Assembly: GCA_002238865.1 (NCBI GenBank)
Contig: MPNE01000011.1
Location: 1 to 64,000 of the forward strand
DNA from: Gemmatimonadetes bacterium bin94
GTDB lineage: Bacteria; Gemmatimonadota; Gemmatimonadetes; Longimicrobiales; Gaopeijiaceae
Direction of reading: 5' to 3'
DNA: 64,000 nt
Shown here one piece after another: positions 39,046 through 43,260 of the stretch (position 1 is its first letter; each line of letters starts with the position of its first letter). The translations under genes were made by a program, and so were the position numbers. The notes below the pieces were generated by a model. It saw only the letters and a list, made by a program, of their open reading frames with translations, searched no databases and was not told the DNA's origin.

Positions 39046-42000
39046 ATGCGAAACTTCATTTCGTGTGCCATTGCGAGCGTGCTTTTCATTGCGGCGACAG
39101 GGGTGCGCGCGCAAGTCCCCGGGGTTGCGGTCGGGGCGGGGGATGGTGGGGTGTTGGGGGGGGGGGGGGCGGGGGGGGCTGGCGTCCCGGCGACGTTGTC
39201 GATGGACACCGACGCGGAACAGCCGTTGAGCACGACATTCACGGTCAACTTCCGTTTTTCGAAATCCGTGAGCGACTTCGCTCTTAATGACATCCGTGTC
39301 ACCAACGGCACATTGGGAGATCGGTTAAGGGGAACCGGCAGGCTCTACACGGTCGAAGTCACGCCGAAGAGCGACTTCGACGGGCTCGTGAACGTAGAGG
39401 TACGCAGCAACGCTGTGGATGACGGCAATCCCGAAACCGACACGGATTTCGAGGTGGACACAAGGGCTCCCAGGTTCGTGGACGCAACCATCGATGAGGT
39501 GACCCTCGTCATCACATACGACGAGGACCTGGACCGGACATCGGAACCGGAAACCACGGACTATACGGTCCGAGTGGAAAACAGCGTCGGCGTCTTTCTT
39601 CTCAGGGCGGATGTCCGTGGCGACGAGGTGACCCTGATTCTCAGAGACCCCGTGTCGAAGGGCGACCGTGTCACTCTGGATTATGTGCCTCCGACCAGCA
39701 ACCCGCTCCAGGATGAACTGGGCAACGAAGCCGTGGAACTCGACCGCGAACCGGTCACCAATAACACCCTGACTGGGGAAGACCTTCCGAGCAAGCCCAG
39801 GAACCTGAGGGCGACCGCCGACGGCAGGACCAGAATCGACCTGGACTGGGACGCGCCGTCCGATGATGGTGGTTTCGACATCATCGGCTACCGGATCGAG
39901 TCCTCGCGTACCGGCAGCAGCGGTAGTTGGGACGATCTGGTAGACGACACGGAAAGTACCAGGACCACGTACACAGACACCGGACTCGATGCGGGGACCA
40001 GGTGGTTCTACCGGGTATCGGCAATCAATCGCGAAGGCGAAGGTCCGCCCTCCGATATTGCCGACGCCACGACCGACGGCGGGGTGCCCAGCGCCGTGCG
40101 CAACCTGACGGCCACCGAGAACGGACAGTTGCGCATCGACCTTTCGTGGGACGAGCCGAGCTACGATGGTGGCGGCATCAGCGGCTACCTCATCGAGGTG
40201 TCGACCAACAGGGGCAGTGCCTGGTCCGATCTGGAGGTCAACACGCGCTCTACGAGCACCACGTATTCGCACACGGGACTGACCGGCGGAACGACGCGGC
40301 ACTACCGGGTGTCGGCAATCAGCTCCGCGGGCACGGGCGATGCCTCCAACGTTGCCAGCGCGACCACCGACATCGGCCCGCCGAGTGCGCCGGTGAGCCT
40401 GAGCGCGGTGGCGCTGAGCGAGTCGCGAATCCAGCTGTCCTGGGGGCCGCCGACCAACGACGGGGGTGCCCGGATCACCGGGTACCGGATCGATGAATCT
40501 CGCACGGGTGGGACAGTGTGGACGACCCTGGTCGGGAACACGCGTTCCACGTCCATGACGTACACGCACGGCGATCTTCCGCCCGGGACCACCCGCACCT
40601 ACAGGGTAGCGGCGATCAATTCGCAGGGCACGGGCGTGTATTCCAGGAGGGCGAGCGCCACCACGAGGGCCACCGTCCCAAGTGCGCCCACCAGCCTGAC
40701 CGCGTCAGCAAGCGGGCAGACCCGGATCAACCTGTCCTGGCGGGCTCCCCTCCTGGACGGGGGCGCTCGCATCACGGGGTACCGGATCGAGTTCTCGCCC
40801 ACGGGGACGTCTGCGTGGACGGTGCTCGTGCCCAACACATCATCCTTCTCCACTACCTACACGCACCGTGGCCTTGCCCCTGCCACCACCCGGTACTACC
40901 GCGTGTTCGCGATCAACTCGGTGGGGCACAGCGAGGCATCGAACATTGCCAACGCCAAAACGGATGCCACGGTTCCCGGCGCGCCGACCCGCCTTTCGGC
41001 TGCTGCTCGCGGACAGAACCAGATCGACCTGTCCTGGGTGGCGCCCGCCAGCGACGGCGGCGCGCCGATCACAGGGTACCGGATCGAGAGTTCCACCAAC
41101 GGCACAACCTTTACGACGCTGCGGAGCAACACCAACTCTCCCGCCACCACATTCCCCCACACGGGCCTGGCTCCCGCCACGCGGCTGTTCTACCGGGTAT
41201 ACGCGATCAACAGCGCCGGCCGGAGCCCGGCTTCGAACATCGCCAACGCCACGACCGACGCGACCGTTCCGACCGCTCCAACAAGCCTCTCGGCCACGGC
41301 CAGCGGCACGTCGCAGATCGACCTGTCGTGGCAGGCGCCCTCGTTCGATGGCGGGGCCCGCATTTCCGGGTACAGAATCGACGTTGCCGATAGTGGAGGC
41401 GGGCCCTGGGCGGCGTTGGTCGCCAATACGCGGTCCGGTTCGACCAGCTATTCCCACACGGGATTGGCTCCGGCCAGCACCCGCTACTACCGTGTGTCCG
41501 CGATCAACTCGGTGGGGAGGAGCCCGGAGTCCGGTGTTGCTAACGCCACCACGGACGCGACCGTTCCCGACGCGCCCACAAACCTGATGGCGACGGCGAC
41601 CGAGCCTACCCGGATCGACCTTGTCTGGGCCGCTCCGGCGTATGACGGGGGAGCACCCGTAAGCAGCTACCGTATCGAAATCTCGGTGGACGGTGCCGCA
41701 TGGAGCGATCTGGCGGCATCGACGGGGGTGACCTCTACCGCCTACGGGCACACGGGCCTGAAGCCGGGGAGCACGCGCCACTATCGGGTTTCGGCGATCA
41801 ACGTCGCGGGCACCGGCGTGCCTTCGAACGTCGCGTCCGCGACCACCGACGATCCCAGGGACCGCGCCGGACGCGTGAACAGGGAAGTGCTCTCGCACGC
41901 GGCCGCAGCCATGACGTCGAGCACGTTCTCGGCGATTGCGGGCCGGGTCGAGTCGTTCGCCGACAGCGATCCCTTTGGCAGGCGGGTTCAGATGGGAGGC

Positions 42001-43260
42001 TTCTCGTCACTGGGCGCGGCCTCGGCGCTGCAGTCCGGAATGTCCGGGCTCGGAAACCGCGGATTCGGCGGCACCGACCTGGATGCCCGTCGGCTGCTGG
42101 ACGGAGCCTCCTTCCTGATCCCGCTTGGCGGCGACTCGCCGAGTCAGATCGGTTCCGGCATGCCCGCCCTGGCGACCTGGGGGAGCGGCCAGTATCACAA
42201 CATGTCGCGGCCTCGCGGGGGTCTGGTCGACTGGGAAGGCAATATGCTCAGCTTGCACGCGGGCGCGGATGTCCGGTTGCGGCCGCATGTCCTGGCCGGG
42301 TTGGTGGCTACGCGGTCCACGGGAGATTTCGACTTCACCGACAAGACCGGCGAGACGGACGTGGCGGGCACCTACGCCAGCCGGATGACCAGCATCAACC
42401 CCTACGTTGCGGGATTCCTGGGCCGGGTGGACATAACCGGATGGGCCACGGGTGGATACGGTTGGGGGAGTATCGAGATCGAGGATGAACGGAAGGAGTT
42501 GCGGTCGAGCAAAGTCAGCATCTTGAACGGGGGCGCGGGTGGCGTCGGCGATCTGCTCGCGAGCGGGAACGCGGCGTTGCGTCTGAAGGCCGAGGGCTGG
42601 CTCGCTCGAGTCGATGTGGAGGGCGCTGAGGAAATCGACTCGGTGACTCTGGACATGGGCCGGGCGCGGGTCGCCCTGGAGTGGAAACAAGGGTACCGGT
42701 TCGCCTCGGGACACGAGATGGCGGTCCTGCTCGAAGGAGGATTGCGCTACGATTCCGGTGACGGACCCACCGGTTCCGGAATGGAGTTTGGGGGAGGACT
42801 TCGGTACGTCAGTCCGCAGGGTGGCCTGACGCTGGAGGGCCGCGGCAGGCTGCTCGCGACCGGGCACCTGGGGTATGAGGAGTGGGGTGTCAGCGGGCTC
42901 GTCCAGTTCGACACGCACGGACGTGGCGAGGGCCTGTCGGTGAGAATGGTCCCGACGTGGGGAGAGGCGTCGAGCGGTGTTCAGGCGCTTTGGGACCGGG
43001 GTGTGAGCGGAATGCCGCACGGCGGCTTCACCCCGGCGCGAGGCCGGCTCAACACCGAAGTGGAATACGGGCTGCGCAACTTTGCCGGCACACCCTACGG
43101 CCGCTTCTACATCGTGGACGGCGGAGACCGCGCCTTCGGCAGTGGGGTTCGCTACGAAATCACCCGCGTGATGGATCTGCGCCTGGAGGGTACGCGCCGG
43201 CAGAGCGCCATCGGCACCGCGCGGCACGGTCTCACCATGAGAGGGCTGTGGAAATTCTAG
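39046..43260 (+). CDS. Autotransporter adhesin-like protein with seven FN3 repeats
   Basis: A 1404-residue protein. Signal peptide about 1-23 (ISCAIASVLFIAATGVRAQ), then a Gly-rich linker coded by poly-G, then Ig-like modules (LSMDTDAEQPLSTTFTVNFRFS and VDATIDEVTLVITYDEDL, about 50-245). Seven fibronectin type III domains of about 97-98 residues follow (about 249-938). Most open with the pattern VPxAPxxLxA, then IDLSWxAPxxDGGAxIxGYRI and end RYYRVxAINSxGxSxxSNIAxATTD. The last 370 or so residues are an autotransporter-type beta-barrel ending in WKF, the usual outer-membrane signature. The FN3 array is thus exposed on the surface and may bind host or neighbour molecules. Slippage in the G tract would switch it off. 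No protease motif is seen. Confidence 0.9.
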   Translation: MRNFISCAIASVLFIAATGVRAQVPGVAVGAGDGGVLGGGGAGGAGVPATLSMDTDAEQPLSTTFTVNFRFSKSVSDFALNDIRVTNGTLGDRLRGTGRLYTVEVTPKSDFDGLVNVEVRSNAVDDGNPETDTDFEVDTRAPRFVDATIDEVTLVITYDEDLDRTSEPETTDYTVRVENSVGVFLLRADVRGDEVTLILRDPVSKGDRVTLDYVPPTSNPLQDELGNEAVELDREPVTNNTLTGEDLPSKPRNLRATADGRTRIDLDWDAPSDDGGFDIIGYRIESSRTGSSGSWDDLVDDTESTRTTYTDTGLDAGTRWFYRVSAINREGEGPPSDIADATTDGGVPSAVRNLTATENGQLRIDLSWDEPSYDGGGISGYLIEVSTNRGSAWSDLEVNTRSTSTTYSHTGLTGGTTRHYRVSAISSAGTGDASNVASATTDIGPPSAPVSLSAVALSESRIQLSWGPPTNDGGARITGYRIDESRTGGTVWTTLVGNTRSTSMTYTHGDLPPGTTRTYRVAAINSQGTGVYSRRASATTRATVPSAPTSLTASASGQTRINLSWRAPLLDGGARITGYRIEFSPTGTSAWTVLVPNTSSFSTTYTHRGLAPATTRYYRVFAINSVGHSEASNIANAKTDATVPGAPTRLSAAARGQNQIDLSWVAPASDGGAPITGYRIESSTNGTTFTTLRSNTNSPATTFPHTGLAPATRLFYRVYAINSAGRSPASNIANATTDATVPTAPTSLSATASGTSQIDLSWQAPSFDGGARISGYRIDVADSGGGPWAALVANTRSGSTSYSHTGLAPASTRYYRVSAINSVGRSPESGVANATTDATVPDAPTNLMATATEPTRIDLVWAAPAYDGGAPVSSYRIEISVDGAAWSDLAASTGVTSTAYGHTGLKPGSTRHYRVSAINVAGTGVPSNVASATTDDPRDRAGRVNREVLSHAAAAMTSSTFSAIAGRVESFADSDPFGRRVQMGGFSSLGAASALQSGMSGLGNRGFGGTDLDARRLLDGASFLIPLGGDSPSQIGSGMPALATWGSGQYHNMSRPRGGLVDWEGNMLSLHAGADVRLRPHVLAGLVATRSTGDFDFTDKTGETDVAGTYASRMTSINPYVAGFLGRVDITGWATGGYGWGSIEIEDERKELRSSKVSILNGGAGGVGDLLASGNAALRLKAEGWLARVDVEGAEEIDSVTLDMGRARVALEWKQGYRFASGHEMAVLLEGGLRYDSGDGPTGSGMEFGGGLRYVSPQGGLTLEGRGRLLATGHLGYEEWGVSGLVQFDTHGRGEGLSVRMVPTWGEASSGVQALWDRGVSGMPHGGFTPARGRLNTEVEYGLRNFAGTPYGRFYIVDGGDRAFGSGVRYEITRVMDLRLEGTRRQSAIGTARHGLTMRGLWKF
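39156..39178 (+). repeat. Poly-G tract (G14, C, G8) inside the autotransporter gene
   Basis: Fourteen G (39156-39169), one C, then eight G (39171-39178), coding GGGG-A-GG in the linker after the signal peptide. A change of one G would shift the frame for the remaining 1360 residues. Further G-rich sequence precedes it (39121-39150). Confidence 0.9.
39784..41860 (+). repeat. Seven tandem FN3-coding repeats, about 290 bp each
   Basis: Successive units start near 39784, 40084, 40378, 40675, 40972, 41269 and 41566. Units 4 to 7 are the most alike in protein, especially their linker (ATTDATVPxAPTxL). DNA identity is moderate, so copy number could change by recombination but the array is not recent. 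Confidence 0.75.

Follow-up and report, generated by a model that had tools for sequence, protein, structure and literature searches.

A G-rich glycine spacer behind the signal peptide of a predicted fibronectin type III autotransporter, with an assembled G-run probably lengthened in part by false base calls

The window, the whole 64-kb stretch of DNA analysed here, contains a tract assembled as 14 G, one C and 8 G within the gene of a predicted surface autotransporter with fibronectin type III (FN3) domains. Judging from homologous sequences, some members of the genus genuinely possess a variable Gly spacer encoded mostly by G. The window tract is probably, by a cautious estimate, such a real G-rich Gly spacer in which false G calls have inflated the run at least in part; the chance that the true run comprises at least 10 Gs is put slightly below even. 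The region would be a flexible Gly-coding and naturally G-rich spacer that links the signal peptide to the first Ig-like domain, and decayed read ends, in which no signal is written as G, would have been assembled so as to lengthen the run. The spacer would then be a linker with a drifting number of Gly residues, and not a proven switch. The features of the gene are as follows.

39046..43260, plus strand: open reading frame (ORF) of 1404 aa with a signal peptide, a Gly-rich spacer, Ig-like domains, seven FN3 domains and a C-terminal autotransporter-like domain (translation, Pfam; homologues in the genus)
39046..39114, plus strand: signal-peptide codons MRNFISCAIASVLFIAATGVRAQ (read from the translation; homologues with the same leader type)
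39115..39192, plus strand: Gly-rich spacer VPGVAVGAGDGGVLGGGGAGGAGVPA, 67% G (GGG in 10 of 12 Gly codons versus 24% in the remaining gene)
39156..39169, plus strand: G14 run as assembled (sequence)
39171..39178, plus strand: G8 run as assembled, one C after G14 (sequence)
39211..39429, plus strand: Big_12 bacterial Ig-like domain (Pfam PF19078, E 3.3e-11)
39454..39696, plus strand: SWM_repeat domain (Pfam PF13753, E 1e-11)
39781..41850, plus strand: seven FN3 domains, approximate limits (Pfam PF00041, seven stretches, E 2.6e-87)
41851..43257, plus strand: predicted C-terminal translocator, a long helix and then an autotransporter-type outer-membrane beta-barrel, last residue Phe (homologue alignment, AlphaFold2, Foldseek)

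The first-pass annotation had described the gene as that of a surface autotransporter, and this description held: the Pfam scan of the ORF reported no autotransporter family, yet the predicted C-terminal fold best matches autotransporter translocators. The C-terminal 469 aa were modelled by AlphaFold2 with an alignment of about 21-22 homologues, which gave a long helix and an outer-membrane barrel (mean pLDDT 66.6), with lower confidence over the final third of the barrel. The best PDB matches of this model in Foldseek were the translocators of Hbp, BrkA, AIDA-I, EspP, NalP and EstA, with a probability of 1.00. In view of the modelled helix and barrel, the translocator matches and the terminal Phe, the product is predicted to be an FN3-passenger autotransporter, at reduced confidence in the last third of the barrel. 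The signal peptide, surface passenger and C-terminal translocator barrel that mark type V secretion would correspond to the leader, the FN3 passenger and the predicted barrel, respectively.

In the assembled sequence, positions 39156-39169 are G14, 39170 is C and 39171-39178 are G8, exactly as had been reported for the stretch right after the signal-peptide codons. G14 is the longest homopolymer of the window, and no other 40-base stretch in the 64 kb is two-thirds G. Under a first-order Markov model derived from the window, G or C runs of at least 14 are expected 0.008 times per 64 kb, or about 0.5 times per 4.4 Mb. The tract occupies codons 37-45 of the 1404-codon ORF on the plus strand, in frame and directly 3' of the signal-peptide codons, and the ORF is intact across it, so the assembled length was rightly called the ON frame. 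Computed changes of G14 by -2, -1, +1 and +2 gave products of 79, 60, 80 and 61 aa, respectively, all ending before every FN3 domain; this bears out the earlier claim of truncation by a one-base change (60 aa at -1, 80 aa at +1), and on these computed products a unit change would switch the product ON or OFF, as at a contingency locus.

This gene architecture fits the reading of the window run as a genuine slipped-strand contingency tract that switches the autotransporter. Slippage of G14 by one or two bases in either direction would shift the frame after the signal peptide and end the product at 60-80 aa (OFF), whereas changes of three would leave it ON with one Gly gained or lost. In Campylobacter, genes are switched by tracts of at least 8 G (PMC6321876). 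We nevertheless regard this reading as rather unlikely: most runs of this assembly look false, and the observed ON frame would arise by chance in one case out of three, or in every case if the errors are substitutions. An argument for the exact run length from the intact frame was dropped, since substitutions never shift the frame.

The corresponding site in relatives informs on how much of the run is real. A G-rich spacer was found at the equivalent position in homologues whose leader is of the same type. The homologue in G021, a congener assembled as a single contig, reads GGTGATGGGGGGGGGCGGGGGGCGTCC there, that is, G9-C-G6; the longest G-run at the site is G7 in G017, G5 in G007 and G001, and G4 in a paralogue from the same genome as the window, and in many relatives the runs are merely 3-5 long. 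Across species, the longest run ranges from 3 to 9, which is compatible with tract variation and does not prove it. Among the Gly codons of the spacer, GGG accounts for 10 of 12 in the window gene and for 7 of 9 in the G021 homologue; in the remainder of those genes its share is 22-24%. The linker had been proposed to tolerate a changed Gly number, and the relatives agree with this: the spacer at this site varies in length among them and is naturally G-rich. Since the site is G-rich in relatives, and G9-C-G6 in a single-contig genome, part of the window run is very likely real. The G-rich, length-variable site also speaks for a switch; however, no OFF-phase homologue of the window gene was seen among the homologues. 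A scan of genome contigs for homologues returned distant FN3 matches only and no close relative.

The run may alternatively be real and serve purely as a flexible Gly spacer, in which slippage is rare or purged and switching is unused. The spacer reads as in-frame Gly in the G-rich homologues examined, which is what this reading expects, as are the short runs of many relatives. G-runs of such length, however, count among the most unstable DNA sequences in the bacteria studied so far, and the almost exclusive use of GGG codons exceeds the needs of a spacer; we consider this reading quite improbable.

How far can the assembled length of the run be trusted? The metagenome-assembled genome (MAG) that contains the window (4.42 Mb, 83 contigs, 97.5% complete) was found to have 78 G-runs of at least 11, some of them 30-56 G long. 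Congeners of similar size have 0 to 87 such runs, with 1 and 12 in two single-contig ones and 0 in two others, and the count rises with contig number over 23 congeners (Spearman 0.68, p 3e-4). Of 52 G-run clusters, 21 are found no more than 250 bp from a contig end, versus 0.5 expected. Contig ends that share the same sequence (the pairs C22/C24, C50/C69 and C13/C71) were compared by pairwise alignment, an all-against-all BLAST of the tract regions being swamped by G-on-G matches. The two copies were near-perfectly identical outside the G-shifted part, and the differences were almost all from A, C or T to G, with 35 changes to G in one copy versus 5 in the opposite direction; in C50 these changes were observed to be denser nearer the run. 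For such other runs of the MAG, the same sequence exists elsewhere in a clean form with non-G bases.

Conserved genes show a related pattern. Four of them contain G/C runs in the MAG with a net length difference not divisible by 3, and are run-free and of constant length in the congeners (4-5 compared per gene; the gene names reflect a reading of the translations, and not family-model results). In an AGCS-type symporter, all congeners have NEAGQGSAPIAHSAAK within a 153-nt stretch, and the MAG has NEA, a G15 run and a C-rich stretch within 155 nt. The corresponding stretch of a GltD-like oxidoreductase is 108 nt in all congeners versus 139 nt with G12 in the MAG, that of a third conserved enzyme is 135 nt versus 182 nt, and that of a DUF1592-like gene is 105 nt versus 197 nt, the last including a degenerate tandem copy. 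These frameshifted genes are likely to be assembly errors, and would look like pseudogenes in an annotation.

Conserved MAG genes with G/C runs and net frameshifts: L102 6029-6043, L104 6025-6036, L113 6044-6079, L115 6021-6033

The interior runs of the MAG are affected as well. Where coding frames were readable on both sides, 2 of 8 interior runs kept the frame, which is the chance expectation, and the flanks of interior runs have a median G fraction of 0.46-0.48 versus 0.33-0.35 for congener tracts. Many G-runs of this MAG, including many interior ones, thus look false in the sequence comparisons. At four MAG loci (L084, L112 9835-9845, L115 and L116), a G-run lies between two tandem copies of one sequence, and one copy is G-shifted in L084 and L115; decayed reads appear to have been assembled into spurious tandem repeats here. 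Within the window, positions 768-900 form a GC-rich segment that contains repeated hairpin-like blocks as well as runs of G8 and G7. In two-colour sequencing, no signal is called as G, and from the error pattern we infer such dark-base decay as the cause of the false runs. Poly-G artefacts of two-channel instruments have been described (PMC8484467).

As the assembly is full of false G-runs, the length of the window tract is not trustworthy without re-sequencing. The G-rich variable spacer and the many false-looking runs were both observed, and we infer that the window run is among those affected. The G fraction beside the tract is 0.55 upstream and 0.43 downstream. Against an artefact stand the mid-contig position of G14-C-G8, at 39 kb of the 103-kb contig C30 and so away from a contig end, the intact frame, and the absence of a degenerate tandem copy, which was scanned for at the tract. 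A further copy of this locus, with which the tract could be compared, does not exist. The phase-variation switch proposed in the first-pass annotation is therefore retained in part: the G-rich, length-variable Gly spacer in relatives and the clean G-tracts in surface-protein genes of the genus agree with it, whereas the true 14+8 length and the switching itself are unsupported, and most comparable runs of the assembly are artefact-like.

The clean G-tracts of relatives were found at two kinds of position. G009, like G021 a congener with few contigs, has 18 tracts of at least 10 G. Plug-domain receptor genes account for six of these, and four of the six are located in the leader or next to it; such genes would be expected to hold about 3.6% of the tracts (p about 3e-5, with an estimated gene length). 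One of the G009 leader tracts corresponds to GGGAGGGAGG, with no run, in the two close congener orthologues with readable leaders, and is thus lineage-specific. On their sequences, these TonB-dependent receptors are candidates for phase variation. In G021, tracts of G15, G13 and G10 lie between -35-like and -10-like boxes. G15 is placed between TTGACA and TAGACT; G13 and G10 are placed between TTGCGA and TACC-type boxes, in promoters related in sequence that precede the genes of two small Cys-rich secreted proteins, themselves related. This arrangement resembles that of the meningococcal porA promoter (PMC3639595).

G009, six TonB-dependent receptor genes that each carry a clean G10-G12 tract, all readable in frame: L172 4015-4025, L173 4003-4013, L197 3040-3051, L207 2982-2991, L198 2951-2961, L200 3028-3038
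G021, tracts of G15, G13 and G10 between -35-like and -10-like boxes: L160 3996-4010, L161 4024-4036 and L169 4036-4045, respectively

Both sets of tracts lend the switch in the window gene some plausibility by analogy, and they would themselves be better candidates for phase variation than the window tract. It appears unlikely that, as a broader reading would have it, this high-GC uncultured genus varies its surface through G-tracts in reading frames (autotransporter spacers and TonB-receptor leaders) and in promoter spacers, with the window gene included. Some of the G009 and G021 tracts lie outside receptor-leader or promoter positions, and variation in tract length inside a population was not seen. 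One of these, a G22 in the single-contig G021 (L163 3999-4020), is apparently located between two gene ends, and not at a gene start, and is not explained by a switch. In G018, the sequence examined at the site matching a G021 promoter tract (L281) stops inside the G-run.

What would either outcome mean? We know of no report of G-tract contingency loci for this lineage, and a literature search on phase variation in Gemmatimonadota found nothing relevant. If the run is real, it would be a further case of the known translational phase variation by simple sequences, and slippage-driven surface variation would extend to an uncultured lineage, in which it could be read directly in metagenome long reads. 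If it is false, it warns that poly-G runs of short-read high-GC MAGs can mimic contingency loci, so that catalogues of tracts compiled from such MAGs have to be verified against congeners; here, the G-shifted flanks and the conserved-gene comparison revealed the false runs.

Compared with known systems, the window protein shares with classical type Va-like autotransporters (Hbp, EspP, NalP, AIDA-I and EstA) a signal peptide, a surface passenger and a predicted C-terminal helix with an outer-membrane barrel. It differs from them in that its passenger consists of Ig-like and FN3 domains and in that the Pfam scan gave no autotransporter family; the classical barrel has 12 strands, whereas the barrel region of the model is longer, with a low-confidence last part. 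As in the poly-G contingency loci of Campylobacter and Neisseria, a G-run on the coding strand lies near the 5' end of a surface-protein gene, and a one-base change would truncate the product. Unlike those loci, the window tract is interrupted by a C, its length is taken from an assembly in which many G-runs are false, and its slippage and switching are putative. In the poly-G artefacts of two-channel Illumina sequencing, false G calls rise toward the read end, and the runs of this MAG likewise cluster at contig ends.
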